A stretch of 64,000 nt of DNA. Source: Cellulophaga fucicola (GTDB taxonomy: Bacteria; Bacteroidota; Bacteroidia; Flavobacteriales; Flavobacteriaceae). The stretch lies in NCBI RefSeq assembly GCF_900119145.1, contig NZ_FPIY01000001.1, positions 1,116,001-1,180,000 on the forward strand, in the 5' to 3' direction. The position numbers and the translations under genes are program-made. A model generated the notes under the pieces. That model was not told the DNA's origin. It ran no database searches and saw nothing but the letters and a program-made list of their open reading frames with translations. Below, in pieces: positions 2,719-27,200 of this stretch; within the stretch, counting starts at the first letter, position 1; every line of letters begins with the position of its first letter.

Positions 2719-2730
2719 AGTTTCCTTAAT

Positions 2731-6345: not shown

Positions 6346-6443
6346 AAATTTGAGTGTTTTTTGGTTAGTTATTAATTAATCGAGATTCAAATAAAAACGG
6401 GGGATAAAGTGTTATTCTTTGGACGGCATAAACTTTGTTCCCT

Positions 6444-7622
6444 TTATTTTATGTAAATAATTCTATTTTTTATTTCATAGGCATTTATATTACTTGTGTT
6501 TTTAATAATTTGTAAAATTGTTTCTATATCCTGTGTTTTTCCCAGTACTCCTTTAAAATTAATATTCTCTAGCTTTTTGTTTTCAAAAACTACATCTACA
6601 TCATACCATCTAGATAGTACTTTCATTATTTCTTTTAAAGACTTATTTTTAAAGTTAAAATGACCCTGTCTCCAAGCAATTTCATTTTCTACATTAACAT
6701 TATAAACTTCTACTTTTTGAGCAATACCATTGGCTATTACAGCTTGTTGTCCTGGCAGCATGTCTGCATTATAAGCTCCGTTTTCTAAAACAATATGTCC
6801 CTCTACCAGAGTAGAATAAATAAAAGATTCATCTTTATAAGCTTTAATGTTAAATTCAGTTCCTAAAACAGCAATGTTTTGTTGGTTTGTTATTACATTA
6901 AAACCATCTCCATTATGATTTTCACTAGAAGAAACATCAAAATAAGCTTCTCCATATACTAATTCTACAGATCTAGGTTCACCTTCTATAAAATGAACAG
7001 GATATTTTAACTTAGACTCAGAGTTTAACCAAACCTTTGTGCCATCTGCTAATTGCAAGGCAAACTCCCCGCCTCTTGGTATTGTTAATGAGTTATAAAT
7101 TAATTTATCTTTTTTACCTTCACTAGATACGTAAGTAAGTTCTTCTCCATTACTTGTTGCAGTACCTAAATTTACTTTTTTACCGTTTTCTAAAACTATT
7201 AAAGATCCGTCTTCTAAAGAAAGTGTTGCTTTAGTAGAACCAGCCTCTATTTTATTAGCTACAACAGTAGGTGCAACAGTTGTTTTGTTTAATAAAGAAG
7301 ATTTAAAAAACAATGCTGTAATTAATACTCCTGCAAACATAGCCGCCGCCGCATACTTTACTAGCTTAATAACTTTTGCTGTTCTTACCTCTCTTTTATG
7401 ATCTGCAATTGCTTTTAACAATACTTGTTTTGTTTTTGTAGAGTCAAATTTTTGTAATGCAATATCTGCTGCAACATTTACTTTTATAAAATCTTCTAGA
7501 ACCTTTTGGTTGTCTAAATCTTGGTTTAGTAACTTATCTAAACCTTCTAATTCTTTTTTAGACGACTCCCTTGTAAGATACTTAGCTATTAATTTATCTA
7601 GTTTTGAAACTTTTTTCTTCAT
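6444..7622 (-). CDS. FecR-family anti-sigma factor
   Basis: The 392-residue protein has a cytoplasmic N-terminal helix region that would bind the sigma factor (DKLIAKYLTRESSKKELEGL) and one transmembrane segment near residues 90-108 (AAAAMFAGVLITALFF). A periplasmic FecR domain follows, with the strong motif VPRGGEFALQLADGTKVWLN and then VELVYGEAYFDVSS. The C-terminal DUF4974-type domain contains the W-R-Q-G-H-F-N-F and LSRWYDVDVVFEN motifs. By analogy with FecIR, it holds the ECF sigma factor inactive until the STN domain of the cognate SusC signals. It lies 98 bp upstream of susC on the same strand and 110 bp from the divergent sigma gene. Confidence 0.93.
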   Translation of the reverse strand: MKKKVSKLDKLIAKYLTRESSKKELEGLDKLLNQDLDNQKVLEDFIKVNVAADIALQKFDSTKTKQVLLKAIADHKREVRTAKVIKLVKYAAAAMFAGVLITALFFKSSLLNKTTVAPTVVANKIEAGSTKATLSLEDGSLIVLENGKKVNLGTATSNGEELTYVSSEGKKDKLIYNSLTIPRGGEFALQLADGTKVWLNSESKLKYPVHFIEGEPRSVELVYGEAYFDVSSSENHNGDGFNVITNQQNIAVLGTEFNIKAYKDESFIYSTLVEGHIVLENGAYNADMLPGQQAVIANGIAQKVEVYNVNVENEIAWRQGHFNFKNKSLKEIMKVLSRWYDVDVVFENKKLENINFKGVLGKTQDIETILQIIKNTSNINAYEIKNRIIYIK

Positions 7623-7732
7623 TATATTTCTAACATATATATCTTAATACGTAAGCATTTTACATAACCCTAACATTTTATTAAACTTTTTTATATATTG
7701 GCAACATATTTAACCAATTATTGTCTTTTTAT

Positions 7733-8341
7733 ATGAGTCCCCCATTAAATAGCGACATTAATTTTATAAATGCATTAAAGTCTGGTGATGCTTCGGCATA
7801 CAATAAATTAGTTAACAACTATCATCAAAAACTTTGTGTTTATGCCTATAACCTTGCCCACGACCGGAGCGAGGCAGAAGATATTGTCCAAAATGTTTTT
7901 ATGAGAGTTTGGCGAAAGAGAGATAAGTTAAAAGCTGATTTTTCTTTACAAAGCTTTTTATACAAATCTGTTTATAACGAATTTATAGATCACTACCGTA
8001 AGCAAAAAAGTGTTTTTCCGTTAGAGAAAAAATATTTAGACGCATTTCATACCTTAGTTGAAGAAACAGATGTCTCTTCTTTTGATATTCTTATAAAAAA
8101 AGTAAAACAAGAAATACAAAATTTACCTCCAAAGTGTAAAAAAGTATTTTTATTAAGCAAACAAGAAGGTTTAACCAATATAGAGATTGCTGAATATTTA
8201 GAAATTTCTATTAAAACGGTTGAAGCACAAATTACAAAAGCCTTTTATATATTAAGAACTAAGATCAATAAAACAGATAGCAACGTCTTTTTGTATTTAT
8301 CTGTTCTAAAATTAAAAAAAGTACTTCTCTTTAAAAGCTAA
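7733..8341 (+). CDS. ECF sigma factor (FecI-like, sigma-70 family)
   Basis: I place the start at the ATG at 7733 (202 residues). The longer frame from TTG at 7721 adds only MSFY-like residues. Region 2 is clear (VNNYHQKLCVYAYNLAHDRSEAEDIVQNVFMRVWRKRDKL read in pieces, near residues 23-63), as is region 4 with its helix-turn-helix (LPPKCKKVFLLSKQEGLTN and IAEYLEISIKTVEAQI, near 130-170). Such factors drive expression of FecR/SusC/SusD loci in Bacteroidota. Unusually it is divergent from its fecR rather than directly upstream on the same strand. The C-terminal tail (LYLSVLKLKKVLLF) is hydrophobic, which is common in this subfamily. Confidence 0.92.
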   Translation: MSPPLNSDINFINALKSGDASAYNKLVNNYHQKLCVYAYNLAHDRSEAEDIVQNVFMRVWRKRDKLKADFSLQSFLYKSVYNEFIDHYRKQKSVFPLEKKYLDAFHTLVEETDVSSFDILIKKVKQEIQNLPPKCKKVFLLSKQEGLTNIEIAEYLEISIKTVEAQITKAFYILRTKINKTDSNVFLYLSVLKLKKVLLFKS

Positions 8342-8396: not shown

Positions 8397-10202
8397 CTAT
8401 TTTTCTATTTCTAAAACTTCTAAGATTTTAGAAAATACTTCTGTATTTTCATAGACACCAGAAAAATTAGCAGAATATGGTCCATATGCAAATATGGGCA
8501 CCATAGCTGCTGTATGGTCGTGTGTTACAAAACCTCCTTCTATTTTATGTGCTACCATATTACCTCCAGAAACACTTAAACCTCCTGTTTCGTGATCTGC
8601 TGTAATAATAACCAAGGTTTCTTTATTTTTATCTGCAAACTGTATTGCTTCTGCTATGGCTCTATCAAAATCTATTGTTTCTGCAACAACACCTTCTGTA
8701 TCGTTATAATGACCAAAAGAATCTATCTGTGCAGCCTCTACCATTAAAAAGAAAGGTTTGTTTTTATTTTCTAAAAAACTGATTGCTTCTTTTGTTGTTT
8801 GGGCTAGTAAATTACCTCTACCGCTTTTTATAGATTTTACACCTCCATCAGCTAAAAAAACACCTAATTTATCTGCTTTATTTTTATTGATTTCCGAAAT
8901 ATTATTCACCAACGTAAACTTTTTATTCAAGGGTAGTTCTTTATATAAGTCTGCCCCACCTGCAGCAAAAAAATCTAAATCTGTATTCAGTAAATCTCTT
9001 GCTATTTTTTCTGTTTCACCCCTGTCTTTTTGTTTGGCGTAAAAGGAAGACGGAGTAGCTCCTGTTATTTGATCTGTTGTTATAATTCCGGTTGAAAAAT
9101 TAGCCTTAGCTAGTATATCTACTAAAGTTGGTAGCGGTCTGCCATCTATAGCTGTACCAATTGCTCTATTATTTGTTTTTTGTCCTGTAGCAATAGCTGT
9201 ACCAGCTGCTGCAGAATCTGTAATTAAATCGTCTGCAGATTGCGTTTTTATTAGTCCAACAGATTTAAGTTGTGTAAGGGTTAAGCTGCCGTTATTGGCT
9301 AAAACGGCAGCCGAAATTTGAGATAACCCCATACCGTCTCCAATCATTAAAATTACATTTTTAATTGGCTTTTTACTACCATCTAAAGCATAAGTAGGTT
9401 TGTAAACATTAGATGTAATTAAAGCTGTTGTAGTACGGTTTTTTAATGTTTTTACATAACTAACACATTTGTATGGCATATCTGTATTAATAACATCTAC
9501 ACCAAGATCTATAAAGGTTTTCCACGCAGTTTTAGAATCTGGTGTTGCCCAAAAACGGAAAGGTTTATTAAGTTCTTTTGCTTTTTTAATAGCAGCTGTA
9601 ACCTTATCATAATCTGTATGTGTTAACCTGCCTTTACCATTCCATTCAGAATATTTTTTAAAACTAGTACTAACCATTGCTACCTTCTCCCAATCTTTAG
9701 AGTCTAGTGTATTACTAAGTTCTTGATGATCAAAAGAAATAAAATCAGGATAATTACTATATGTATTTTGCTTAGGTCTATTTCCAGATATTATAAATTG
9801 TATATTTTTATCTGTAGTAAGCTGTGGATATTTGGCTAAAACAGAAATCACTTTTTTTAAGGTTTTCTCTGCATCAGACTTAATATCTATCATTAAAATT
9901 AAAGGAGATGTACCCATCAACTTATTTTTAACTACCTGCTGTAAAGGATCTATATATAAATTTTGTAATGTATTATTCTCTATAATTTCATTCTCTGTAT
10001 GTGCAACGTATAAAGCACCCTTTTTTAACCAAACGTCTGCTTCTAAAATATTAGCTCCGCTAGAAAAAGCATTCCAAAAAGGTACATTCTGCAAATAATC
10101 ATTATGAGAATGAATAAGAATTTGATTCTCTTTTTGAGCAAAAGAAATCATTGAAAAAAAGCCAACGGCAAGTATGATACATTTTTTTTTAAATGCGAAC
10201 AT
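8397..10202 (-). CDS. Bifunctional exported phosphodiesterase (PLC/GDPD-like) - alkaline phosphatase
   Basis: The 601-residue protein has a signal peptide (CIILAVGFFSMISFAQ). The N-terminal domain (about 25-255) resembles the PLC-like/glycerophosphodiester phosphodiesterase barrel: HSHNDY near residue 32, LEADVW, VAHTE and a final GVDVINTDMPY strand. The C-terminal domain (about 275-600) is an alkaline phosphatase, with NVILMIGDGMGLS (metal site), TDSAAAGTAIATG (nucleophile Ser near residue 329), ITADHETGG and HDHTAAMVPIFAYGP. The expected chemistry is hydrolysis of a phosphodiester to a monoester and then release of phosphate in the periplasm or at the surface. It lies 79 bp after susD on the same strand with a terminator between. 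The real diester substrate is not evident from sequence. Confidence 0.88.
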   Translation of the reverse strand: MFAFKKKCIILAVGFFSMISFAQKENQILIHSHNDYLQNVPFWNAFSSGANILEADVWLKKGALYVAHTENEIIENNTLQNLYIDPLQQVVKNKLMGTSPLILMIDIKSDAEKTLKKVISVLAKYPQLTTDKNIQFIISGNRPKQNTYSNYPDFISFDHQELSNTLDSKDWEKVAMVSTSFKKYSEWNGKGRLTHTDYDKVTAAIKKAKELNKPFRFWATPDSKTAWKTFIDLGVDVINTDMPYKCVSYVKTLKNRTTTALITSNVYKPTYALDGSKKPIKNVILMIGDGMGLSQISAAVLANNGSLTLTQLKSVGLIKTQSADDLITDSAAAGTAIATGQKTNNRAIGTAIDGRPLPTLVDILAKANFSTGIITTDQITGATPSSFYAKQKDRGETEKIARDLLNTDLDFFAAGGADLYKELPLNKKFTLVNNISEINKNKADKLGVFLADGGVKSIKSGRGNLLAQTTKEAISFLENKNKPFFLMVEAAQIDSFGHYNDTEGVVAETIDFDRAIAEAIQFADKNKETLVIITADHETGGLSVSGGNMVAHKIEGGFVTHDHTAAMVPIFAYGPYSANFSGVYENTEVFSKILEVLEIEK

Positions 10203-10281: not shown

Positions 10282-11868
10282 TTACCAACCTTTATTTTGT
10301 GGTATACCAGAAGATTCTATTACTGTATTTGGTATTGGCCATACGTTCATATAAGACGCATCAAAATTTCTTGCAGGCCATACTATTTCTGACGTATAAG
10401 GAGAATCTGGATTAGACCTGTCTGTATGTATACGACCATAAATAGGTTCTGCATAAGTTGTTGCTGCATCTCCCCAACGTACCAAATCAAAATGTCTGTT
10501 TGCAAATTCACCTGCTAATTCCACTCTACGCTCGTGCTTAAGATCATCCATAGTTGCATTAGTTATTGGTGCTAAACCAGCTCTATCTCTAACCATATTT
10601 AATGGTGCATCTCCGTTTTTACCATCGGCAATTAATGCTTCTGCTTTCATTAATAACACCTCTGCGTAACGCATTAATGGTACATTGTAAACTGTAGTTG
10701 GGTTATCTCCGTTTGTATTTAAATATTGTCCTATTGGGTCTTCAAACTGAAATTCGTACATATATTTATTAAACTGAAATCCAGATATAGAATTTTCAGA
10801 CTGATACCTTCTATCTTCTCCAAAATATTTAAAGTCGTCACCAAAATTTAAGATAGTAACACCTCTACGTACGTCTCCTGCTTCATACTCATTATATAAA
10901 CCTTCAGATGGTGTATAGTAACCCCAGCCGTTGTATTTACCCCAACCTTTGTTCTCTAACATTACACCTGTTAAAATACTACCACGGTCTACACCAGAGT
11001 TTACAGACCAAATGTACTCGCTTGTCCAGTTATTTAAATTACTGTGTAATTCTCTGTAATCTACCTCTGGATTATCTGTATCTATTAATGCTCTACCAGA
11101 ACCAGAAGTTGTTACTGCATCTGCATACTTAACTACCTCTGCATTTCTAGAAGCATCATAATTAGACCAGTACAAATTAGTTTTAGCTAAATAAGCTAAT
11201 GCTGCATCTTTATGAGGACGACCATAATCTGCACCGCTATAATCTGTAAATAATGGCAATAGGTCTGCCGCTTTTTTAAGATCTTCTTCAATTTGCTTGT
11301 AATTTTCTACTACAGATTCTGGTCTAGAGTACGTACCTCCTTCATTAAACATATTATCTACTGTAATAATTGGCACACCTCCATTTACATCATCACCATA
11401 AGTATGTGCAACCCAGAAATAGCTAAAGGCACGCATAAAATAAGCTTCCCCTAAGACACGGTTTTTTGTGCTTTCTGATATTTCCATTTCTGGAACATTT
11501 AATAAAATATCATTAGCACGTCTAATAATATTATAACATTTAGCATAACAAGTAGAGGTGTAACTACCCTCACTACCATCTATATTAAAATCTTTAATAA
11601 CGTCTGCCGTTGCTTTAATACGACCAGTTATCATATCATCGGATGCATTAATGTACCAGAAAAAACCTCTACCAAACATTTCTTGGTCTCCCATTAATTG
11701 GTATAAACCGTTTGCTGCTTGTACAGCATCCGAATCTGTTTTCCAGAAACTTTCATTAGATACTTTTCCTAGCGGTTCTAGGTTTGTAAAATCGTCTGAG
11801 CAAGAGGTTAGGTTTAAGCCTAAAACACCCAATGCAATTAATCCTAATTTTTTATATGTATTTTTCAT
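10282..11868 (-). CDS. SusD/RagB-family nutrient-binding outer-membrane lipoprotein
   Basis: The product has 528 residues with a lipoprotein signal (KLGLIALGVLGLNLTSC, Cys at residue 23) followed by the SusD-typical SDDFTNLEPLGKVSNESFWKT. The motif GEAYFMRAFSYFWVAHTYGD marks the SusD N-terminal helical domain. VYNVPLMRYAEVLLMKAEAL and HERRVELAGEFANRHFDLVRWG mark the C-terminal domain. The gene starts 21 bp after the upstream susC. It probably binds the ligand whose phosphate-bearing part is processed by the adjacent phosphodiesterase-phosphatase, though this is inferred from context only. Confidence 0.95.
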   Translation of the reverse strand: MKNTYKKLGLIALGVLGLNLTSCSDDFTNLEPLGKVSNESFWKTDSDAVQAANGLYQLMGDQEMFGRGFFWYINASDDMITGRIKATADVIKDFNIDGSEGSYTSTCYAKCYNIIRRANDILLNVPEMEISESTKNRVLGEAYFMRAFSYFWVAHTYGDDVNGGVPIITVDNMFNEGGTYSRPESVVENYKQIEEDLKKAADLLPLFTDYSGADYGRPHKDAALAYLAKTNLYWSNYDASRNAEVVKYADAVTTSGSGRALIDTDNPEVDYRELHSNLNNWTSEYIWSVNSGVDRGSILTGVMLENKGWGKYNGWGYYTPSEGLYNEYEAGDVRRGVTILNFGDDFKYFGEDRRYQSENSISGFQFNKYMYEFQFEDPIGQYLNTNGDNPTTVYNVPLMRYAEVLLMKAEALIADGKNGDAPLNMVRDRAGLAPITNATMDDLKHERRVELAGEFANRHFDLVRWGDAATTYAEPIYGRIHTDRSNPDSPYTSEIVWPARNFDASYMNVWPIPNTVIESSGIPQNKGW

Positions 11869-11889
11869 TGTATTCTTTGTTTTGTGTGA

Positions 11890-14800
11890 TTATAATGACA
11901 ACAATAACCCTAATGTAAATGTCTTAGCTACTGGATATTTAGCAATATCTAAACCTTTACCACCAACTTCTGGGTCTAAACCAGAGTAGTTTGTAAATGT
12001 TACCAAGTTTTCTCCTGACACATACATTCTTAATGATGATCCTTGCGACAACTTATCCATAACTTTATTGCTAAAAGTATAACCTAGAGATATATTTTTA
12101 ATACGTACATAAGAAGCATCTTCTAAATACCAGCTAGATGCTGTACCAAAGTTTTTATTATCATCTTTTGTAGAAATAATTGGTATAGATGCATTTGTGT
12201 TTGTTGGCGACCAAGCATCTAATACTCTGTTATCTAAGTTGTAACCAGACAAGGCTGCGTTATATGTTGTAAACTTATAACCGTTAAAGGCTTTTACACC
12301 ACCTACACCTTGTAAAATTATACCTAAATCGAACCCTTTATAATCTAAGTTTGCTCCTAAATTATAGGTTATTTTTGGTTGATAAGAATCGAAATACACA
12401 CGATCTTCTGATCCTATTTTACCGTCGTTATTGGTATCTTGAAATTTAAAATCTCCTGGTTGTGCATTAGGCTGAATTAAGTTGCCATCTTTACTATGTG
12501 CATCTATTTCTGCCTGTGTATTAAAAATTCCTAATTGCGGAATTAAATATGGGGTGTATAATGCGCCACCAACTTTTGTTTGGTAAGGTACTAATACACT
12601 TCTAACATTATCACTATGGTAAAATACATCTTGCCCTATAGATGCATAACCGTCTAAGTTCTCTAATTCGTTTTTAATAGACGTTGCATTGGCATTAATA
12701 CTATAATTTAATTCGCCATTTGTATTTGTATACGTTGCAGAAACTTCTAGACCTGTATTTTTAACCTGTCCGCCATTTACATCTGCAGGATCTATACCTT
12801 GATTTACATCTGCTAAACCAGGAATAATCATACCTTTTGTAGTTTTCTCAAAATAATCTACAGTTAAACTTAAACTGTTATTAAATAAGGCTGCATCTAA
12901 ACCAATATCTAAAGATTCTGATGTTTCCCATTTTAAGTTTCTGTTTGCATTTCTTTGTACATAACTACCAACAGTATCAAAATAAGCACCATTTTCTCCC
13001 ATAACTACGTTACCACTAGCTACTGGCACATCAAAAGGATAATAACCTCTAATAGACTGTATATTTCCTATTTCTCCCCAAGATGCTCTAAATTTTAAAT
13101 CGTTTATTGCATCTACATTAAAGAAAGATTCATTAGATATTCTCCATCCTGCAGAAACCGATGTAAAAGTATCCGTTTGGTTTTCTTCTGCTAACCTAGA
13201 AGACTCATCTGTACGTATACTACCAGAAATATAATATTTGCTTTTGTAATTATACATTACCCTACCAATTGCAGACGTTAAAGCTTCCTCAAAAGGATTG
13301 TTACTTGGTTTATTTAATAACTCTGCATTTTGTAAATACTGATTGAAAGATTCTTCTGATGAAAATCCTGTACCACGTAAAGAAATAAAATCTCCTTTTG
13401 TGTTTTGTGCTGAGTAAATTGCCGTAGCATTTAAACTATGATCGCCAAAGGTTTTGTTGTAGGTAAGTTGATTGTCCCATATCCATTTATTTTGTGTGCT
13501 ATTTTCTTGCAATAATGTATTCTGACTATTGCTACGTCCTAACTCTGGAACACGTGGATAAAACTCTTTTCTTTTACTATCTCTGTAAGAATAAGAGTAG
13601 CTAGATTTAAATGATAAACCATCTAACAAATCATACTTAAAATAAACGTTTGCATTTATAAATGTACTTGGAGATTCTTTAGTTGGTCTTAATAATAATG
13701 ATAATGGGTTGTAAACATCTCCATAAGCACCAGCAAACTGAGACAAACTCTCTGGAACTACACCCGCAAAACTACCATCCTCATAACGAGTTGGTGATGC
13801 AGAAGGCATATAAATAGCATTTATAATTGTACCAGAATATGGGTTATCTGTGTTTGTACCGTACGCCTCATCTCTAGAGAAATAAATATTCTCGCCTACT
13901 GTAATTTTATCGGTGATATTAAAGTCCGACTTTAACCTTAAACTATAGTTCTGAGAACTTGTGCCCTCTAAAACACCTTCTCTGTCTCTAAAAGCAAAAG
14001 ATGTATAATAGTTATACTTATCTCCTGCCCCACTTAAATCTACATTTAAGTTATTTACAACTGCATCTCTAAAAATAGCATCTATCCAATTGGTACGGTT
14101 TTCTTGTCCGTAAGGATTTTGTGCTGCATCGTGGGCAGACTGTCTTGGCGTACCTGCATTATCTGCTGCTAAATTATATACTTCTGACTGTTGTTGTGCC
14201 GTTAATGGTGTTGGTAAATTAGCAGCTGTTTTTATACCTGTATAATAGTTAACACTTAACCTTGGCTTACCAACTTTACCTTTTTTAGTTTCTATAACAA
14301 TTACACCAGATGCCGCTTGTGCACCATAAATTGCTGCAGATGCTGCATCTTTTAATACAGATATAGAGGCAATATCATTTGGGTTAATCTCTGGTCCGCT
14401 ATATGGTAAACCATCTACAACTACTAATGGTGCTTCTGAGTTTAATGTACCAATACCTCTAATTTTAATACTAGCAGTACTTGTTGGGTCGCCACCAGAA
14501 CTTAATACTGTAACACCCGCTATATTACCTTGTAAAAACTCTTTGTAGTTTGTAACAGGTCTACTTGTAATTGTCCCCACATTTGTTGCTGAACCAATTG
14601 CAGAGGTTAAATCTCCTTTTTTAGTAGAACCGTAACCAATTAATACTACTTCGTCTAAAGAATTAGTAGCCTCATCTAATCCTATAGATACTGTTTGGTT
14701 ACCAGAGTAAGCAATTTCTTTGCTTGCAAAACCTAATGAAGATATTACTAACACTCCATTTTCTTCTTTTAACTCTAATAAAAAGTTACCATCAAAATCT

Positions 14801-14961
14801 GTTGCAGTACCTGTTGTAGTTTTACCTTTAATAGTAATTGCAGCTCCAGAAATTGGCATTCCGTCTGCGTTAGACACTACTGTTCCTTTTACTGTAACCT
14901 GCGCTAACATGGTAGATAAACACCCTAAACTGAGTGTTAGGAAAAAGTATAATTTTTTCAT
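11890..14961 (-). CDS. SusC/RagA-family TonB-dependent transporter (no STN domain)
   Basis: The 1023-residue protein has a signal peptide (LYFFLTLSLGCLSTMLAQ), then a carboxypeptidase-regulatory-like domain (about 20-95, TATDFDGNFLLELKE). The TonB-box-like EVVLIGYGSTKKGDLT and a plug with APLVVVDGLPYSGPEINPNDI and AAIYGAQAASGVIVIETKKG follow, then a barrel ending KTFTLGLLLSL. Unlike the first SusC it has no STN domain, so FecR-type signalling is not expected. The one-component/HTCS-type regulator 180 bp upstream on the same strand is the natural controller. It pairs with the SusD gene immediately downstream. Confidence 0.95.
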   Translation of the reverse strand: MKKLYFFLTLSLGCLSTMLAQVTVKGTVVSNADGMPISGAAITIKGKTTTGTATDFDGNFLLELKEENGVLVISSLGFASKEIAYSGNQTVSIGLDEATNSLDEVVLIGYGSTKKGDLTSAIGSATNVGTITSRPVTNYKEFLQGNIAGVTVLSSGGDPTSTASIKIRGIGTLNSEAPLVVVDGLPYSGPEINPNDIASISVLKDAASAAIYGAQAASGVIVIETKKGKVGKPRLSVNYYTGIKTAANLPTPLTAQQQSEVYNLAADNAGTPRQSAHDAAQNPYGQENRTNWIDAIFRDAVVNNLNVDLSGAGDKYNYYTSFAFRDREGVLEGTSSQNYSLRLKSDFNITDKITVGENIYFSRDEAYGTNTDNPYSGTIINAIYMPSASPTRYEDGSFAGVVPESLSQFAGAYGDVYNPLSLLLRPTKESPSTFINANVYFKYDLLDGLSFKSSYSYSYRDSKRKEFYPRVPELGRSNSQNTLLQENSTQNKWIWDNQLTYNKTFGDHSLNATAIYSAQNTKGDFISLRGTGFSSEESFNQYLQNAELLNKPSNNPFEEALTSAIGRVMYNYKSKYYISGSIRTDESSRLAEENQTDTFTSVSAGWRISNESFFNVDAINDLKFRASWGEIGNIQSIRGYYPFDVPVASGNVVMGENGAYFDTVGSYVQRNANRNLKWETSESLDIGLDAALFNNSLSLTVDYFEKTTKGMIIPGLADVNQGIDPADVNGGQVKNTGLEVSATYTNTNGELNYSINANATSIKNELENLDGYASIGQDVFYHSDNVRSVLVPYQTKVGGALYTPYLIPQLGIFNTQAEIDAHSKDGNLIQPNAQPGDFKFQDTNNDGKIGSEDRVYFDSYQPKITYNLGANLDYKGFDLGIILQGVGGVKAFNGYKFTTYNAALSGYNLDNRVLDAWSPTNTNASIPIISTKDDNKNFGTASSWYLEDASYVRIKNISLGYTFSNKVMDKLSQGSSLRMYVSGENLVTFTNYSGLDPEVGGKGLDIAKYPVAKTFTLGLLLSL

Positions 14962-14986: not shown

Positions 14987-14994
14987 CAAATGTA
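14987..14994 (-). promoter_or_regulatory. Candidate -7 promoter element for susC
   Basis: The minus strand reads TACATTTG, a match to the Bacteroidota -7 consensus TAnnTTTG, 26 bp upstream of the susC ATG. No convincing -33 TTTG lies at the usual distance, so this is weak. Confidence 0.35.
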
Positions 14995-15140
14995 TAGTAA
15001 GACACTTTCTAGAGGGGGTAAAATTGTTTCAGTGAGGCGGACTTTTAGTACAAAAAAGCCTTTGTAAGCATCAAAAAAGAGGACTTTTATTACAGTAACA
15101 TTTAGCTAACACACAGGTAATCCTAAGCAAACAATGACTC

Positions 15141-18100
15141 TTATATTTTTTGCTCTTTATATGTTTTAGGACTTACTCCAAAATGCTTTTTAAATGTGCG
15201 TCCAAAGTATTTACTATCACTATAACCACACTCAAAACCAATTTCTGAAATATTAAACTTCTTATTCTTAAGTAGATATTCTGCTTTTTGTAAACGCAAA
15301 GATGTTATTACGTCAGACGGTGATTGCCCTAAATGTTCTTTAAACAATCTGTAGCATTTAATTCTAGATATTTCTAGAATAGAGATTAGCATTTCTATAT
15401 TAAACGATGGGTTTGATAGTTGTTCTTTAATTATCTCTAAACTGCGCTTTAATAATTTCTCGTTACCAGATTGCAAATCGTTTTCCTCTGTTAATATTTT
15501 AAATATCTCTTGCTGAAACTTATTATGCCCGCGCTCTAAGCTTCTGTTTATTAAAGAAGTTATTTTATTGGTAATAAAACTTTGACTAGCCGGCAATTGT
15601 ATAACTACATCTATTCCAAACTCTAATGAGGTCTCTTGTAATGCATAGTTTATTTCTTCTGATATATAAACTAAAGGAACTCTATCCTTTTTAGGAATCT
15701 CTTTATATTTTTGTAAAAAATAAGCAGTTTCTTTTGTAAACCCTATTTGATAAAAAACCAAAACATCTATACGTATTTGTTTTAAGGCTGATGATAAATT
15801 GGTTACCAAATCATCAAACAAAAGATAATTATCATCATTCTTTAATAATTGATTAGCAACTTCAAAATTTGAAGCATCTGTAAATACTAGAATATTATTT
15901 TTATTAGGCGGAAGCTTTTCTTTTAGATCTAAGTGTTTCCAAGAAATAGTCTCTACAGCCTTTACATTTTGCTGCATTACTGCTACTGGTAAACTAAACT
16001 TAAAATTAAAAAGTTGTGTGTTTTCTATATTACAAGCACCATTAACATCTTTAATTAAAACCAAAAATGCTTTGTAATACGGACTGTAGTTTAAAATGTT
16101 TTTTATATTACTTTGTAAAACAACACTAGTAGAGCTGACACTAAATTCTAGTTGATTATCTACTAAGCTTACAGCTACATCTAACGTACTTTTAGCTTCA
16201 GAATACTTAATAATATCATTAAAGATATATTTAAGTAATAGTTTAAAGCGCAATAAATCTACTTCTACCCAAGCAATATTAGAATCTAACTCAGCATTAA
16301 AATTTGCATTATTTTCTTTAAATTTTTCTTGTACGTTTGTGCAAATTCCTTTTAAAATAGGAAGTAAATTAACAGATGTTAGTTTTATTTCTCCTAACTC
16401 CTTAATATGGTCTAAATAGTTCCATTCTGATACTAAATCTATTATTTTACCTGACTGTTCTACCAACTCTTTTTTTATAGAATCGTTATTTTTTATATCG
16501 TGCGACGATTTTAAAATAATAGACAATGGCTGCTGAAACTGAGATAAAACAAAGGTTTTAAATTTATCTACTTCAAAATCTTGATTCTTTAAATTATTAT
16601 GCAAATTCAATAAGCTTTCTTTCTGAAGCAGAATTTCCTTGTTTTTATCGTCTAACTCCGTATTTATTTTTAGTAAATCTTCTTTTTGTTTCTCTATAAG
16701 TTTTGTTCTATTAACAATCTGTTCTTCAAGTTTTTTACGTTGTACTTTTGTTGCCTTATTACGCAGGTAAAAAAAAGCAACTGCCACACCGATAAATACG
16801 AGTAACACAAGTATAAAAAAAGTGATGGTTTGGTAAAAAGCTTTTTCAATCTGTAATGTAAAAATTTCTACGGCAGCAGCATCTTTATTCGTTTTAACTA
16901 AAAAAGTATAATTTCCAGACGCCAAATCTAAATACTGAATATTTTTTTTCCCTTTAGCTAAGACCCAATCTTTATTCTGTCCGTGTAATTTGTAATAATA
17001 ACTACTATTTTTAGCTACGGGAAAAACTACTGGCGTAATGCTCACATTTATATCGTTTTTACTGTATGGTCTAGATAATATTTTAGATTCGACTTTTTTT
17101 CCATTAAATTCAACTCTCAATTTAGGTGTCTGTCTTTCAAAACTTAGAGCATTAGGATTAAAATAATTTAGGCCATTAACGCCACCAAAAAATAATAAGC
17201 CTTTGTTGTCTTTATAATAAGCGCCTTCAGAGAATTCTGGTGCCTGCCAACCTTCTTTAGGGTTAAAAGCTGTTACAACATAGCTCTGTTTATCTATAGC
17301 AGCAATACCCTTAGTGGTACTTACCCATACCTTATCTTCATTATCTAACAAACCATAAACCATATGGCTTGGTAAACCGTCTATATCTGTAATATTTTTT
17401 AGTATACCTTGTTCTTTATTGTAAATACTAATGCCCCCTAAAGAAGCTATCCAATAATTATTAGTTGCCGCATCTATATATAAAGAATAGATACTATTAC
17501 CTAAGAGTCCTTCTTTTTTATTAAGCGTACTTAGTTTCCCCGTTATAAGATCTAAAAAAAAAACACCGTTTTCTTCTGTAGCAACTACAAGTTCGTTTTT
17601 ATACTTTTTTATGTTTCTTATATGATAATGTTTAAGTAAATCTTGCCCTTTAAAAACTTGAAATTCATTCATTTTTAAATTATACATTGCTACACCACCC
17701 CAACAGCCAATCCACAACTGATTACTTGTATCCTCAAAAAAAGAATAACTTCTATTGTTTGGTAACTCCGGTATTTTAGAAGCCTCGAATCTTGTATACT
17801 TATTATTTTTTATTCGCAATAAACCAGCATACGTGCCTGCCCAAATGCTACCATCATTAGCCGTATAAATGCTCCTTATACGTTCCCACTCATAATTATT
17901 TTTAGATTCTTTAATTTCAAACTTTACGTAACACTCAGTAGCTTCATTATAATGGTACAAACCTCCATTGTAGTAGCCAATCCAGATATTACCATTTTCG
18001 TCTTTAGTTATAGCTCTTGTGGTTTCTACCGGTAAGTGAGGAAATTTATTAGGATGAGGAACAACAGAAGAAATTTGCTCGGACCCAGAATATGCCATAC

Positions 18101-18854
18101 TTAAACCACCATCTTTTTGTCCCAACCATACATTACCATAAATATCCTGATTTAGAGTATTTATTTCGTTACTGTAAAGCGTATAAGGTGCGTAAGAATC
18201 GTAAGTGTAATGGTGAATTACACTGGTATTTAAGTTGTTTGTATGGTTTGGTATAATGTACAATCCGTTTTTAAAAGTAGCAAACCAAAGATTACCTTGT
18301 TTGTCTTTTAAAATATCATTAATAATAAGATCTGGATACTTATTTAATAGTATTTTTTTATAAACATTGTTCTTATTTTCTACACTTAAGGTTGATGTGT
18401 TTTTAACAAACTCACCGTTTACATATTTGTAAGCCACACCACCAACTATGACATTTAAGATACCATTACTAGACACTACAATTTTAGATGGTCTTTGTGT
18501 AAACTTAAATTGTTTAAACTCGTTATTACCTAAGTATTTACAAACAAAACCATCATTACTAAAGGTCCATATAAAACCATCCTTATCTTTTTCTATACTG
18601 GTAAGGTAATTACTTGGTAAAGATTTTGGATTATTAATATCATGTTTAAAAGTGGTAAATGTGTAACCATCAAAATAATTAAGTCCGTCCCAAGTGGCCA
18701 TCCACAATCCGCCATCATTATCGTTCTCTATGTCTAAAACAGAGTTATTAGATAAACCCTGATTTGTAGTATAGTTTATAAATTTTAACTGTTGCGTGTA
18801 GCCAGAAAAACTTAGTATTAAAAATAGAATTAGAAAGTAATGTAGTGTCTTCAT
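15141..18854 (-). CDS. HTCS-like regulator: beta-propeller sensor, Y_Y_Y domain, degenerate kinase and receiver, AraC-type DNA-binding domain
   Basis: The 1237-residue protein has a signal/anchor (HYFLILFLILSFSGYTQ) and periplasmic two-component-propeller repeats (about 30-600; LWMATWDGLNYFDGY, LWFATFKNGLY, IWIGYYNGGLY and others). A Y_Y_Y domain (SSYYYKLHGQNKDWVLA) and a transmembrane segment near 670-695 follow, then a coiled coil. The kinase region is degenerate: the H-box SHEFRTPL is LSQFQQPL near residue 771 (no His), and the DxGxG and GxGxGL nucleotide boxes are absent. The receiver region has Tyr (DVLVFYQIGF, near residue 1035) where the acceptor Asp should be. The C-terminal AraC helix-turn-helix (about 1145-1235, FNISEIGFECGYSDSKYFGR) is intact. 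It likely senses a ligand and activates the susC-susD locus downstream without phosphorelay. Confidence 0.85.
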   Translation of the reverse strand: MKTLHYFLILFLILSFSGYTQQLKFINYTTNQGLSNNSVLDIENDNDGGLWMATWDGLNYFDGYTFTTFKHDINNPKSLPSNYLTSIEKDKDGFIWTFSNDGFVCKYLGNNEFKQFKFTQRPSKIVVSSNGILNVIVGGVAYKYVNGEFVKNTSTLSVENKNNVYKKILLNKYPDLIINDILKDKQGNLWFATFKNGLYIIPNHTNNLNTSVIHHYTYDSYAPYTLYSNEINTLNQDIYGNVWLGQKDGGLSMAYSGSEQISSVVPHPNKFPHLPVETTRAITKDENGNIWIGYYNGGLYHYNEATECYVKFEIKESKNNYEWERIRSIYTANDGSIWAGTYAGLLRIKNNKYTRFEASKIPELPNNRSYSFFEDTSNQLWIGCWGGVAMYNLKMNEFQVFKGQDLLKHYHIRNIKKYKNELVVATEENGVFFLDLITGKLSTLNKKEGLLGNSIYSLYIDAATNNYWIASLGGISIYNKEQGILKNITDIDGLPSHMVYGLLDNEDKVWVSTTKGIAAIDKQSYVVTAFNPKEGWQAPEFSEGAYYKDNKGLLFFGGVNGLNYFNPNALSFERQTPKLRVEFNGKKVESKILSRPYSKNDINVSITPVVFPVAKNSSYYYKLHGQNKDWVLAKGKKNIQYLDLASGNYTFLVKTNKDAAAVEIFTLQIEKAFYQTITFFILVLLVFIGVAVAFFYLRNKATKVQRKKLEEQIVNRTKLIEKQKEDLLKINTELDDKNKEILLQKESLLNLHNNLKNQDFEVDKFKTFVLSQFQQPLSIILKSSHDIKNNDSIKKELVEQSGKIIDLVSEWNYLDHIKELGEIKLTSVNLLPILKGICTNVQEKFKENNANFNAELDSNIAWVEVDLLRFKLLLKYIFNDIIKYSEAKSTLDVAVSLVDNQLEFSVSSTSVVLQSNIKNILNYSPYYKAFLVLIKDVNGACNIENTQLFNFKFSLPVAVMQQNVKAVETISWKHLDLKEKLPPNKNNILVFTDASNFEVANQLLKNDDNYLLFDDLVTNLSSALKQIRIDVLVFYQIGFTKETAYFLQKYKEIPKKDRVPLVYISEEINYALQETSLEFGIDVVIQLPASQSFITNKITSLINRSLERGHNKFQQEIFKILTEENDLQSGNEKLLKRSLEIIKEQLSNPSFNIEMLISILEISRIKCYRLFKEHLGQSPSDVITSLRLQKAEYLLKNKKFNISEIGFECGYSDSKYFGRTFKKHFGVSPKTYKEQKI

Positions 18855-19076: not shown

Positions 19077-20564
19077 TTACAAACTAAACCATTTGCAAAC
19101 TTCTTGTTTTATATCTTGATCTCCTCTTTGTAAGCAGTCCCACTCATTAGTTGCTTGGTTGTACTGGTAATCTTTTTTCCAAAGGACAATCTTTTGTTGT
19201 ATCTCTTTTATTGCATCACAAATAAATAATAACTCTTTATTTGTCATTAAAGGATGTAAAGACAAACGTACCCAACCTGGTTTATTAGTCAGGTCTTTAC
19301 GTATAATATTACGTGTAATTTTTTTAGATTCTTTTTTATCTATATCAAATAAATAATGACCATAAGTACTAGCACAAGACCAGCCACCTCTTACTTGTAT
19401 TCCAAATCTATCGTTTAATAAACGTACCAATAAATTGTAGTGTATATTTTCTACTGTAAAAGATATACACCCAATTCTAGGTACAGATATATCTCCTAAA
19501 ATATGCAAGCCATTAACCTCTAAAAGATTTTTATAACTAATTTCTAAAAGTTCTTCTTCCCTTTTCTGAATTTTAGAGACATTCATTTTCTCTTTTAATC
19601 TAATAGCTAAAGCTGCTTTCATAGTTTGTAAAAAACCTGGTGTACCACCATCTTCTTTAACCTCTATATCTTCAAAATAACTATAACTACCCCAAGGATT
19701 GGTCCATTTTACATTACCACCGCCTGGAGTATCTGGACATTTAGCATTATACATTTTTTTATTAAATACTAAAACGCCGCAACTTCCTGGTCCTCCTAAA
19801 AATTTATGCGGAGAAAAAGCAATTGCATCTAAATAAGCTTCTGGATCTGCTGGGTGCATATCCATTTTTACATACGGTGCAGATGCAGCAAAATCTACCA
19901 CACAGTAACCATCATGTTTATGCATTATTTTAGCCAACTCGTAATACGGAGTAATAATACCTGTAACATTAGAACAAGCAGTAAAAGCTCCTATTTTTAT
20001 AGGTCTGTCTTTGTATTCTAATAACTTTTGCTCTAAGCTATTTACATCTACAAGCTTATCTTCATTACAATCTAAGATCACAACATCTGCCAAGGTTTCC
20101 ATCCAAGAAACGTGGTTAGAGTGGTGCTCCATATGTGTAATAAAAACTACAGGTCTCTCAGATCTATTTGGCTTATGTTTAAAGCTTTTACGAATACCTA
20201 TTATACGTTGCAATTTTACAATTGCCCCAGTCATACCAGTACCTGTTGTAACTAAAATATCATCTTCACTAGCATTAACGTGCTCCTTAATTATTTTACG
20301 TGCTAATTTATAAGCATACGTAGAGGCTTTACCTGTTTCACTAGAAAAAGAATGTGTATTGGCTACCATTGGCCCAATTTTATGTTGCATTGCATTTTCT
20401 ATAGGCGTATATAATCTTCCACTAGCTATCCAATCTGCATAAACTAATTTTTGCTCGCCATATAATGTTTTAAAATAATGGTTGCTTCCTATAACTCCGC
20501 TAGAAAATTGCTGAAAATAATTCTCTAAATTTTCTTGTACTAAAACTTCTTCTTTAACATTCAC
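19077..20564 (-). CDS. Class V aminotransferase-fold PLP enzyme, cysteine desulfurase-like
   Basis: The 495-residue protein has the fold-type I PLP layout of NifS/SufS-like enzymes. YADWIASGRLYTPIE is near residue 42, ILVTTGTGMTGAI is the cofactor phosphate loop, HMEHHSN and VDFAASAPYVKMD follow, and AFSPHKFLGGPGSCGVL carries the Schiff-base Lys near residue 254. IQVRGGWSCASTYGHY near residue 394 resembles the R-x-G-x-x-C-A active-site loop of group II cysteine desulfurases, so sulfur transfer from cysteine is plausible. Start: GTG at 20562-20564. The nearest upstream ATG is out of frame and the next internal Met is residue 59, which would cut the fold. No suf or isc genes are adjacent, so the sulfur acceptor is unknown. 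It appears monocistronic. Confidence 0.8.
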   Translation of the reverse strand: MNVKEEVLVQENLENYFQQFSSGVIGSNHYFKTLYGEQKLVYADWIASGRLYTPIENAMQHKIGPMVANTHSFSSETGKASTYAYKLARKIIKEHVNASEDDILVTTGTGMTGAIVKLQRIIGIRKSFKHKPNRSERPVVFITHMEHHSNHVSWMETLADVVILDCNEDKLVDVNSLEQKLLEYKDRPIKIGAFTACSNVTGIITPYYELAKIMHKHDGYCVVDFAASAPYVKMDMHPADPEAYLDAIAFSPHKFLGGPGSCGVLVFNKKMYNAKCPDTPGGGNVKWTNPWGSYSYFEDIEVKEDGGTPGFLQTMKAALAIRLKEKMNVSKIQKREEELLEISYKNLLEVNGLHILGDISVPRIGCISFTVENIHYNLLVRLLNDRFGIQVRGGWSCASTYGHYLFDIDKKESKKITRNIIRKDLTNKPGWVRLSLHPLMTNKELLFICDAIKEIQQKIVLWKKDYQYNQATNEWDCLQRGDQDIKQEVCKWFSL

Positions 20565-24241: not shown

Positions 24242-27200
24242 ATGATGCTACATAATTCAACAATTATTTTATTAAATAAAAGAAAAGCAGTGAAAGCTAT
24301 ATTGCTTTTTGCTTTCTTATTCTTTGCGCAAGCATTTTATGCACAAACCTCTGGAGTATGGACAGATGCAGGTGGAGGAAAATGGACATCTATAAGTTCT
24401 GACGGTTTAGTACGTATTGAAGTTACTGTTACTGGCTATGTAGATATTCTTGGCGGCGATACTATGCTTTGTTCTCCTGATGCTTTTAGTGACCCAACTA
24501 TTACAGGGACACCTTCTCTGGCTTTAGATATTGATGGTAGTAATGGTACTATTTCTTTTGAGTTTTACGATACAAGAACAAATACATTAGCAGATATACA
24601 AAAACCTATTTTACACGTTGATAAAATTGGAGCAACAGGAGGAATATTGACTAATACAACTGGTATATTTTATTTACAAGACGGATACACTTGGAATGAA
24701 CTAAGTGGCACAGATAGATTTCTTTCTGACCCAACATTTTTTAGAGGCCAAAATTTATTTGAAATATTAGGTGGAAGTGGTGAATGCGGAAATACTGGAG
24801 GTGGTAGTTTACAAATAACAGATTTGACAAACACAATAAATATTAATACGGGTTTAGAAAAAAATCCAACATTAGTTGTACCTGCACCAGACCGAGACGA
24901 AGTAGAATTTGCCTTTTCTAACTTAGTAATAAATCCTTGTACTTCTGGAGCTATAATTGGTACACCTACAGATAACGATACAGATGGTGATGGTATAAAT
25001 AATAGTTGCGATTTAGATGATGATAATGACGGTATTTTAGATACTGATGAAGGTAGTTGTACTCCTGTACAATCTGGCGCTTGGACTATTGCTGGTAAAA
25101 CAGCTTCTTTTGATTATGGTAACGGAGTAATCGCTAATATTACCACAACAAACTCTACCAACTTTGTAAGTGGTAATTTTACAAGTCCAGCTCCAAATTT
25201 CTGGACAGAAGACTTAGCAGCTGATATTTCTCTTGCTGCTACTTATGATAGCGGAGTAACAGTTACGGTTGAGTTTGTAGATGCTGCCAACAACCCTGTT
25301 TTTGTAGATAAGCCTACGCTTCATATAGACCGTATTGGTGGTAACGATGGAAGTGATAATCAAACCTCAGCAGAAATAACCCTTTTAAATAGTTTAACGT
25401 GGTCAAAACTTGCCGGTACATTCGATTTTGTTTCTACAGGAACCACTGTAAGAGATGGCGGAACAGGTTTACCATCAGATGGTTATGACCCTGAAAGTTC
25501 TTTAAAAGATAGTGATGGTTCTGCCGCTGGAACATTACAAATTAACCAAAGGGTATCTACTTTTACTTTACAATTAGCTCAGACTTCTGCAACAGGAGTA
25601 GAAGATGAAATAGAACTTATACTTTTTGCTTGTAAGGACAGAGATTCTGATACAGATGGCGTTCCAGACTTATTAGATTTAGATTCTGATAACGATGGTA
25701 TTTTTGATGTTATTGAAGCCGGACATAAACAACCGCATACAAATGGAATACTTGGCACAACTGTTAGTGACGATGGTATTTTTGATGCCTTGCAAACAAC
25801 TAGTGGTGTTAATAGTGGCACTGTAGATTATACTTTAGCTGACTCAGAAACCACACCAAACGGAACACCCGATTATTTAGAATTAGATGCAGATGGCGAT
25901 GGTTGTAATGACGTTTTAGAAGCAGGATTTACAGATCAGAATAACGACGGATTACTTGGTAACCTACCAACAGTTGTTAACGCTACTACTGGTGTGGTTA
26001 TTAGCGATATGGTTATAGATGGTTATACTACTCCTAAGAATGCAGATAGTGGTTCTGGAAATACAGTGTTAGATTTTCAGCAACCTGGAGAAGCACCAAC
26101 AATAACAAACACAGCAAACCAACCACAAGATATTTTAACCAATGGTACAAACCCAGAAACTTTTGTGGTTACTGCAACCGGACAAGCTTTAACATATCAA
26201 TGGCAAATAGACCGTTTAGATGGTAATGGTTTTGTAGATATAAATGATGCTAACACTGTAGATATTTATACAGGGAGCACAACTAATACACTTACACTAA
26301 CTGGAATTACAGCTAGTTATGATGGGTTTTTATATCAGGTTATTATTAATGATGAAACTTTTTCTTGTGACACTCTTACTTCTAGTAGTGCTAAAATTAT
26401 TTTTGATGATACACCACCTAGCGCTCCTATTGTTGTTATTACTGAAGACATAAATAATGACGGGTTTTTAAATATAAGTGAATCTATTGGAGATGTTGAT
26501 GTTACTATTACTTTACCTGCTGATGCAGTTGAAGGTGATATTTTAACCATAAACGGAACAGACCAAACTTTAACAGCTACAAATATTAGCGACGGAGAAG
26601 TTCTTGTAACATTTACTCCTCCAGCAGAGGATGGTTCTTTAACAGTTACTGCAACTATAACAGATCCTGTAGGTAATATTAGTAACCCAGGCACAGATAC
26701 TGTTAACGTAAATACAGTTGCTACTTCTGCTCCTACAGTTGTTATTACTGAAGATATCAATGATGATGCTATCATAAACAATACAGAATTAGTTGGTGAT
26801 ATTGATGTAACTATTACGTTACCTGCTGAAGCTGTTGCTGGAGATATTTTAACCATAAACGGAAACAATCAAACTTTAACTGCGGCAGACATTACAGCAA
26901 CAGAAGTAACAACTACATTCCCAAACCCTGGCGAAGGAAACACATTAACGGTAACGGCGTCTGTTACTGATACTGCTGGTAACACAAGCACAAATGGAAG
27001 CGATTCTGCTACAATAGAAACAACATCTGCTGATGCCCCTACGGTTGTAATTACAGAAGATATTAATAATGATGCTATTATAAATAGTACCGAATTATCT
27101 GGAGATATTAATGTAACTATTACATTACCTACAAATGCGGTTGTAAATGATATTCTAACTATAAATGGTACAGATCAAACTTTAACAACTACAAATATTA

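Follow-up and report, generated by a model that had tools for sequence, protein, structure and literature searches.

A working hybrid two-component system (HTCS) is marked by a phosphorylatable histidine, an ATP site, and a receiver that contributes a phosphoryl-accepting aspartate and a lysine. Most HTCSs are also described as carrying an S/CHIP-DK motif between receiver and DNA-binding domain (DBD), which is thought to keep the DBD off DNA until phosphorylation (PMC11253607). In the same account, the authors suggest from the features of one protein of Bacteroides thetaiotaomicron, BT4236, that it may work by a phosphorylation-independent mechanism (PMC11253607). Loss of the phosphoryl-accepting residues appears to be rare: a 2025 review gives figures of 0.9% for HisKA domains that lack the His and 2.0% for receivers that lack the Asp (PMC12632262). 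The operators of B. thetaiotaomicron HTCSs have been predicted to be direct repeats averaging 21 bp apart, with the monomers on one side of the DNA (PMC3878776). In Flavobacterium johnsoniae, the phosphatase PhoA1 (pf00245 and pf13653) belongs to the phosphate utilization system (PUS) known as PUSII and is induced together with PusC2/D2 in phosphate depletion (PMC8115612).

The window considered here is a stretch of 64,000 nucleotides from Cellulophaga fucicola (contig NZ_FPIY01000001.1, positions 1,116,001 to 1,180,000). It encodes, in front of a SusC/SusD pair and a phosphatase gene, a regulator that is an HTCS by architecture: a propeller, a Y_Y_Y domain, a membrane helix, the fold formed by the dimerization and histidine phosphotransfer (DHp) and catalytic ATP-binding (CA) domains, a receiver fold, and an AraC domain are all found in a single chain. 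None of the phosphotransfer features named above survives in the family to which it belongs. The protein is probably a phosphotransfer-free, ligand-controlled, membrane-spanning transcription regulator that was derived from an HTCS and would serve an organophosphate operon. That it has no need for phosphorylation is well supported by the comparisons of sequences described below. Although an HTCS by architecture and descent, it fails in the chemistry that defines the class, and should therefore not be counted among the functional HTCSs that transfer phosphate.

Loss of the phosphotransfer residues

The losses were followed in 41 loci, the window included. Of these, 33 were confirmed after two kinase-receiver peptide patterns had been run against 84,980 species genomes, four were added by a search of the window's family and three by a search of its phylum; eight of the 12 family-search loci are the same places as pattern-scan loci. 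Locus L041 was left out of all counts of residues, coil, lid, tree and dN/dS (the ratio of nonsynonymous to synonymous substitution), so that 40 readable copies remain. Locus L078 was kept in the 40-copy residue, rod and Pfam counts and left out of the tree and of the conservation of propeller columns. Six intact HTCSs served for comparison, three from the genome of the window and three from other genomes of its family.

The first-pass annotation, made from the letters of the window, had described an H-box without His, absent ATP boxes, and a receiver acceptor Asp replaced by Tyr, and each of these observations extends to the family. Ser771, within LSQFQQPL (residues 770–777), aligns on the phospho-His, and the site is Ser in 30, Ala in eight and Asn in two of the 40 copies. 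In the window protein Tyr876 and Asp880 stand for the first and second N-box Asn, and Ser908 for the Asp of G1; G2 is gone, and a deletion has removed the glycine-rich ATP lid. Across the copies the N-box site reads Asp in 34, Glu in four, and Ala and Val in one each, and the G1 site Ser in 35, Thr in two, Glu in two and Ala in one. Taken alone G1 is weak evidence, because half of the six intact HTCSs have Asn at this position. In every copy the lid segment measures 14 residues, against 27–32 in the intact proteins. In the receiver, Tyr1035 of DVLVFYQIGF (residues 1030–1039) aligns on the phospho-Asp; the site is Tyr in 40/40 copies and is among only three invariant residues in the 134-residue receiver segment. 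The Lys is replaced by Leu1087 (Leu in 37 copies, Met in three), and the first acid of the acidic pair has been lost throughout. Positions that flank the switch residues have changed as well: T+1 is Glu in 39 copies and Asp in one, against Ala in all six intact HTCSs, and K-3 is never Tyr (Phe in seven copies), against Tyr in all six.

Domain searches give the same picture. With a threshold of E ≤ 1, Pfam finds Reg_prop, HTH_18, HTH_AraC and Y_Y_Y in the window protein, together with two matches below the cut-off, and no match to HisKA, HATPase_c or Response_reg. All three of these families score at E ≤ 0.001 in six of the six intact HTCSs. Among the best 25 of 46 Pfam families, HisKA and HATPase_c each match at most one of the 40 members; Response_reg at E ≤ 1 is detected in four of 40 cytoplasmic parts and in ten of 40 receiver segments. 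By contrast with these losses, the earlier statement that propeller, Y_Y_Y domain, membrane helix and AraC output are kept is borne out by Pfam, by the alignment (the helix by eye), and by a match of the sensor part to the solved HTCS sensor 4a2l (E 9e-58). The C-terminal part matches the hybrid protein 12aw (E 3.5e-20). An AraC-type helix-turn-helix (HTH) is recognized by Pfam in all 40 copies, and the DBD, measured over residues 1136–1230, is 95 residues long in every one of them.

Phosphorylation of some unusual kind might continue, with the invariant Tyr1035, or His974 (present in 35/40 copies), as possible sites. His974 is Tyr or Asn in the other five, and the chain retains no recognizable ATP site, with N box and G1 replaced and the lid deleted; such a reaction seems very improbable. 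Displaced acceptors, which the first-pass annotation had named as a refutation, were sought. No universally conserved His was found in residues 696–1132 (the best are His974, His752 in 32/40 and His816 in 21/40), and no universally conserved Asp in residues 960–1132 (the best is Asp1082, 32/40). The losses of His and Asp appear to exceed chance, being shared by 40/40 copies, and full-length identities to the window protein fall as low as 41% among the first 13. To find both losses in one chain and throughout a clade is unusual, since each is rare in the review cited above (PMC12632262), although no census of HTCSs was made.

Predicted folds of the dead kinase and receiver

A model of residues 690–1237, built with 40 sequences (mean pLDDT, the predicted local distance difference test, 81; pTM, the predicted template-modelling score, 0.50), predicts a single helix that begins at the membrane side and continues through the whole of DHp helix 1; after it come the other DHp helix, a sandwich of CA type, a receiver and the AraC domain. 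Among PDB entries, Foldseek matches this cytoplasmic model best to the full-length hybrid kinase ShkA (E 8.3e-12). DivL, a kinase relative with Tyr in place of His, is fourth, and RetS is also among the matches. Modelled alone, the receiver reaches pLDDT 92 and pTM 0.88, and its best 50 PDB matches, headed by 6swl (E 1e-6, TM 0.76), all consist of or include a receiver domain. On these models the kinase and receiver folds survive despite the lost residues: the chain includes a pseudo-histidine kinase, with a DHp/CA fold and neither His nor ATP site, and a pseudo-receiver, with a receiver fold and no phosphotransfer residues.

The appearance of DivL and RetS among the fold matches, and the retention of both folds under selection, might suggest that the protein is a dead-kinase subunit under the control of a partner. 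Both of these pseudo-kinases reportedly act through partners, and another kinase or response regulator could pair with the pseudo-DHp or the pseudo-receiver, with the phosphoryl step elsewhere. No conserved upstream neighbour was found when the three open reading frames (ORFs) before the regulator were clustered in 34 loci, no cluster being represented in more than five. The regulator also retains a sensor and a DBD of its own. Control by a partner is therefore quite unlikely.

A conserved family under selection

Full-length orthologues are carried by 13 of 299 genomes of the window's family, its own included, and the other 12 are 42–53% identical to the window protein. This count is a lower bound, because only two candidates per genome were scored. 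The next three matches after the orthologues, at 25–27% identity, are intact HTCSs. The pattern scan places loci in Cellulophaga, Wenyingzhuangia, Polaribacter, Ochrovirga, Flavobacterium, Tamlana, Maribacter and Zobellia; Seonamhaeicola, Tenacibaculum, Sinomicrobium, Confluentibacter, Pustulibacterium, Mesonia and two uncultured Flavobacteriaceae complete the list, so that the same losses occur in 14 named genera. Beyond the Flavobacteriaceae, a full-length profile at E ≤ 1e-100 found one of 395 class genomes, the window's own, and a kinase-receiver profile at E ≤ 1e-20 had matches in five of 395 phylum genomes, each of them from the window's own family; both cut-offs are strict, and the genomes were sampled, with two and four candidates per genome respectively. 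The regulator thus appears to be kept across many genera of marine and soil Flavobacteriaceae. Its nearest kin are from Cellulophaga. In a tree made by a quick method, with a long stem and long outgroup branches, 39 full-length copies fall on one side of a branch from the six intact HTCSs, with support 100.

Whole-gene dN/dS lies between 0.07 and 0.19 in nine of ten pairs, the tenth being saturated; these values come from our own variant of the Nei-Gojobori method, and dS is saturated in parts of some gene pairs. The pseudo-receiver gives 0.03–0.13 (8/10 pairs) and the pseudo-CA 0.11–0.36 (nine pairs), and the higher values imply that the pseudo-CA is the less constrained of the two. A decaying gene might be suspected from one broken frame and one in-frame truncation among the 41 loci. 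Against it stand 39 of 41 copies at full length, the low dN/dS, the same losses in 14 genera, and the conservation of operator and neighbours. Decay is hardly credible here, and as a general account it is ruled out by the low dN/dS and the supported clade of full-length copies. The first-pass annotation had also set simple decay aside, on the strength of an intact frame of 1237 codons; the frame is confirmed (15141–18854, reverse strand), and the conserved homologues, their intact frames and their dN/dS now bear out the judgement. Its central suggestion, a phosphorylation-free HTCS, is likewise supported: displaced acceptors were not found, the homologues share the losses, and dN/dS is low.

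A separate observation concerns dS along the gene. Between the window and L039 it is 1.19 in the propeller and 0.07–0.60 from the pseudo-DHp onward, and a similar jump is seen in L062, L067 and L070. The sharp change suggests that relatives have exchanged the cytoplasmic half by recombination.

A helical rod of fixed length

The losses are accompanied by an insertion. Residues 696–771 span 76 residues in 40/40 copies, against 38, 38, 38, 38, 38 and 34 in the six intact HTCSs, which makes the rod 38 residues longer than in five of the six. The period of its hydrophobic residues is strongest at 3.50, as expected for a coiled coil, and the rod forms one continuous helix in the model. The constancy is not a mere lack of insertions and deletions, because other linkers vary among the copies (46–51 residues over 937–985 and 48–55 over 1036–1088). 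Length is constant, too, in the lid, in the DBD and in the receiver's first half.

The S/CHIP motif ([SC]HIP) occurs in none of the 40 copies. Its substitution in BT4124 is reported to lead to phosphorylation-independent DNA binding (PMC11253607), and this speaks for the chief rival explanation, in which the DBD is always active and no longer answers to the sensor. Output would then be set by the regulator's own expression, under PhoB for example, and the propeller would be a relic or a membrane anchor. The in-frame loss of the propeller in L078 can be read in the same way. Sequence conservation argues otherwise. Of the 651 columns of the propeller, 82 are invariant in 39 copies, and its dN/dS is 0.09–0.22 in nine pairs; all 39 copies besides L041 and L078 are 1220–1271 residues long; and the rod has not changed length in any of 40 copies. 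A permanently active, unresponsive DBD is thus unlikely.

A putative operator in front of susC

A conserved block occupies the gap between regulator and susC in 40/41 loci, in one of them weakly. It consists of TGTTA-like half-sites on an 11-bp grid. In 39 gaps (L041 and L053 omitted), pairs of half-sites with at most one mismatch are found 45, 34 and 26 times at spacings of 11, 22 and 33 bp, against 6.2, 4.2 and 4.0 in shuffled gaps. Three half-sites share one grid in 27/39 gaps, against 8/780 shuffled gaps, and two do so in the other 12/39. A second series of spacings, 6, 17, 28 and 39 bp (22, 31, 16 and 21 occurrences in 39 gaps, against 3–6 after shuffling), would be explained by a TGTAA-like word placed 6 bp beyond the final half-site, and the window has such a word. 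With two HTH motifs in each AraC domain, one domain could read two half-sites. Two 11-bp steps make 22 bp, in agreement with the average spacing of 21 bp predicted for HTCS repeats (PMC3878776).

A matrix was derived from 20 gapless rows of 37 aligned gaps, the alignment leaving out L041 and three loci with odd gap lengths under the start-codon rule (L048, L053 and L063); the other 21 of the 41 loci were scanned as held-out. In a leave-one-out test that excluded blocks at least 80% alike, the operator is the best match in 19/20 training stretches. The exception is L050 of Wenyingzhuangia marina, where the site is second to another copy of the operator (16795–16846) in front of a second SusC gene, which suggests that one regulator serves two SusC/D pairs. 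In 20 of the 21 held-out loci the best match lies in the gap or overlaps its edge, with scores of 8.6–54.2. The best score is 8.5 in 26 control stretches, which comprise 20 loci with the phosphatase fusion described below and no pseudo-HTCS, and six intact-HTCS loci; the operator is absent from those 20 fusion loci.

In L053, with a gap of 585 bp, the operator lies 116 bp from the SusC frame, and so its position tracks the promoter and not the point where the regulator gene ends; among the remaining 19 held-out sites, 14 lie at 116–130 bp from the SusC frame and five at 22–99 bp. Six full-length regulators that form one nested clade precede SusC proteins only 32–34% identical to that of the window, and the operator is still present. 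These six loci, the spacing in L053, and the second copy in L050 are the stronger cases. The promoter itself may be recognizable: the -7 box of Bacteroidetes has the consensus TAnnTTTG, and the last 65 nucleotides of the gap contain TAnnTTTG in 21/39 loci and TAnnTTT in 29/39.

In the 3.9-Mb genome of the window, the operator pattern with at most two mismatches gives five matches, against two for a reversed control, and is exact only at the susC site. A candidate second operator on contig 17, with one mismatch, was rejected on its matrix score of -2.0.

The organic-phosphorus locus

The first-pass annotation had proposed a search for homologues that share the losses and adjoin SusC/D genes, and 40 further loci of this kind exist. 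In 41/41 loci the next same-strand ORF of at least 90 residues is of SusC type, followed by one of SusD type; seven divergent SusD genes were confirmed by Pfam. A fusion of a GDPD domain to an alkaline phosphatase follows downstream in 40/41 fetched stretches, and in the remaining locus (L050) it lies about 11 kb beyond the regulator. The locus is therefore of the PUS kind, with a SusC/D pair and a co-located phosphatase/phosphodiesterase. The fusion is present in 13/13 genomes with the pseudo-HTCS and in 24/286 others, four of the 24 having the phosphatase half only (Fisher p 1.9e-13, uncorrected for relatedness). An extra downstream gene, metallophosphoesterase-like by eye, is found in 11/34 loci.

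In seven loci (L043, L044, L047, L052, L079, L080 and the truncated L078) the same regulator stands before a different SusC/D pair, as if the transporter pair had been exchanged or the regulator had moved. Five of the seven contain an extra gene of 340–403 residues, and the one tested, from L043, is an alkaline phosphatase by Pfam. That call rules out the idea that the gene of about 380 residues in L043-type loci is a second GDPD.

Table 1. Positions in the window of the regulator, its parts, the putative operator and the genes that follow
Feature	Position	Strand	Basis
Pseudo-HTCS regulator	15141..18854	-	intact ORF with ATG start, 1237 residues; Pfam domains; 40 further loci
Propeller sensor and Y_Y_Y, periplasmic, residues 20–670	16845..18797	-	Reg_prop 1.6e-29, Y_Y_Y 3.6e-8; limits by eye
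Probable membrane helix, residues ~671–695	16770..16844	-	hydrophobic stretch between sensor and coil in alignment; by eye
Coiled-coil rod with insertion, residues 696–760	16575..16769	-	length, hydrophobic period, model helix
Pseudo-DHp, residues 761–835; Ser771 at phospho-His position	16350..16574	-	alignment; histidine-kinase fold in model
Pseudo-ATPase (CA), residues 836–960; ATP lid deleted	15975..16349	-	lid length; N box and G1 replaced
Pseudo-receiver, residues 985–1105; Tyr1035 at phospho-Asp position	15540..15902	-	alignment; receiver fold in model
AraC-type DNA-binding domain, residues 1133–1237	15144..15458	-	HTH_18 1.3e-20
Putative operator, TGTTA-like half-sites on 11-bp grid	15083..15134	-	alignment, leave-one-out matrix, spacing test
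Half-site TGTTT	15129..15133	-	
Half-site TGTTA (GATTA between the half-sites, by eye)	15107..15111	-	
Half-site TGTTA	15096..15100	-	
TACATTTG, like Bacteroidetes -7 promoter box	14987..14994	-	consensus match
SusC-type TonB-dependent transporter	11890..14961	-	TIGR04056 6.7e-243
SusD-type lipoprotein	10282..11868	-	SusD_RagB 2.7e-29
GDPD-alkaline phosphatase fusion	8397..10202	-	GDPD_2 3.7e-10, Alk_phosphatase 7.1e-62

A mechanical reading and the evidence against it

Since the helical rod is fixed in length and the operator is conserved, it is likely that the signal passes by a change of conformation. In the proposed sequence of events, an organophosphate or phosphodiester in the periplasm, or a compound derived from it, would act as ligand and alter the geometry of the sensor dimer. 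The movement would run through the membrane helix and the rigid rod into the pseudo-DHp helices, and would reposition the pseudo-receiver and the paired AraC domains; the two DBDs might then match the 11-bp repeat of half-sites in the operator. The susC-susD-GDPD/phoA genes would be switched on, with uptake and hydrolysis of phosphodiesters as the outcome. With sensor and DBD in one chain, the sequence fits a one-component transmembrane regulator. A more detailed proposal must be held tentatively, at somewhat less than an even chance: the 38-residue coiled-coil extension replaces phosphotransfer as the means of transmission, the dead kinase and Tyr-bearing receiver act as the lever and clamp that space two AraC domains on the 11-bp-phased operator, and regulator and operator have moved as a unit onto a different SusC/D pair.

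Several observations weigh against a ligand-controlled, phosphotransfer-free regulator of this design. The receiver pocket partly survives, so that the original statement that all phosphorelay residues are lost stands for His, ATP site, Asp and Lys and has to be qualified elsewhere: the second acid is kept in the window (Asp993) and is Asp or Glu in 23/40 copies, and Ser1065 replaces the conserved Thr, with Ser or Thr in 37/40. The presumed partner columns of S/CHIP in the DBD, matched by eye, read Asp in 36 and Glu in four copies and Lys in all 40, against Glu six times and Lys or Ser three times each in the intact HTCSs. The partner Lys is thus Ser in three of six intact proteins. The model is of a single chain with pTM 0.50, and for that reason the geometry of domains and dimer is not established by it. 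The frame of L041 is broken. In L078 (genome G971; regulator at 11066–12910), residues ~55–670, nearly the whole propeller, have been lost in frame, and the sensor may accordingly be dispensable in some lineage.

The operator has weaknesses of its own. No gap of 39 contains four half-sites on the grid at ≤1 mismatch, the GATTA-like fourth being seen by eye. No match lies in the gap of L057, and the score of L078, 8.6, is the weakest and is not separable from the best control. Part of the scores must be owed to descent, because the held-out loci are relatives of the training loci. Another factor, PhoB for example, could use the block.

L078 is of interest in its own right as a possible natural sensor-less version of the regulator, with a weak operator.

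Neighbouring genes

Behind the phosphatase gene of the window (1192–8341) are a second SusC-like ORF, weakly matched, and FecR-like and sigma-factor-like genes recognized by eye, which represent a different type of regulator next door. When the window FecR-like and sigma-like genes were compared by BLAST with the 20 fusion loci without a pseudo-HTCS, both were found in four (L124, L131, L132 and L133), and in L131 and L132 they stand directly before the SusC gene that precedes the fusion. Neither was seen in the other 16 loci, within the 18 kb fetched for each and at the BLAST sensitivity used. In L122, also a fusion locus without the pseudo-HTCS, a neighbouring gene is weakly HTCS-like. Cassettes of this kind thus seem to be served by several regulators, of which the pseudo-HTCS is one.

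Upstream of the regulator lies an aminotransferase class V/cysteine desulfurase-like gene (19077–20564). It is probably unrelated, because it stands beside the regulator only in the window and in the two closest Cellulophaga loci, L039 and L040. Farther away are an adhesin-like protein of 2809 residues (38021–46450, reverse strand), which carries SprB repeats and the type IX secretion signal CHU_C, and an ORF of 2570 residues (24242–31954, forward strand), in which numerous similar repeats can be seen by eye and which probably encodes a large surface protein.

Comparison with known systems

Pseudo-kinases, pseudo-receivers and one HTCS without the His, BT4236, are already known in the literature as far as it was surveyed. 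A conserved HTCS family with both halves dead, a shared insertion and an operator of its own was not among the matches listed in a search of titles and the beginnings of abstracts in the open-licence literature. The organic-phosphorus locus, the operator, and the helix insertion that accompanies the losses go beyond the first-pass annotation. With them, a regulator can be predicted for one class of organic-phosphorus loci in Flavobacteriaceae, and the family is present in environmental genera such as Zobellia and Cellulophaga. If the more detailed mechanical proposal is true, the family would be a clean natural test of the contribution of phosphotransfer to HTCS signalling and of the way in which a pseudo-receiver is switched. 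One gene and one promoter bring together sensor, transmission, dead kinase, dead receiver, DBD, predicted operator and predicted physiological role.

The canonical HTCSs BT4663, BT1754 and BT4124 share with the window family a one-chain architecture from propeller to AraC domain and a gene beside SusC/D, and canonical operators, like the one proposed here, are predicted to be direct repeats about two helical turns apart (PMC3878776). Unlike them, the window family has no phospho-His, ATP site, phospho-Asp or Lys; its lid is deleted, its rod is longer, and S/CHIP is absent. PUSII of F. johnsoniae (PusC2-PusD2-PhoA1) resembles the window locus in its SusC/D pair and in a phosphatase of the domain content of PhoA1, a likeness of domain content only; a FecR-like regulator, Fjoh_3252, is listed for that cluster, whereas the pseudo-HTCS precedes susC in the window (PMC8115612). 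SusR-like regulators also sense in the periplasm and bind DNA through a cytoplasmic part of the same chain, and they serve SusC/D operons. Their DBD is described as unlike other known ones, their predicted sites are 67 or 77 bp apart, and kinase or receiver remnants are not mentioned in the portions of the source consulted (PMC3878776).

Another precedent is BT4236, in which Gln replaces the phospho-His and the REC-DBD motif (receiver to DBD) is non-consensus. Both of these features are shared; BT4236, in the account available, is a single protein noted in passing, whereas in the window family the losses extend to kinase and receiver and are fixed in a clade (PMC11253607). ShkA with its pseudo-receiver, DivL, RetS and FrzS are like the window family in that folds are kept while catalytic residues are lost. 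Reportedly, these proteins have other outputs, or phosphotransfer takes place elsewhere in their systems. Each is a pseudo-kinase or a pseudo-receiver, whereas in the window family both are dead within one chain that has its own sensor and its own DBD.

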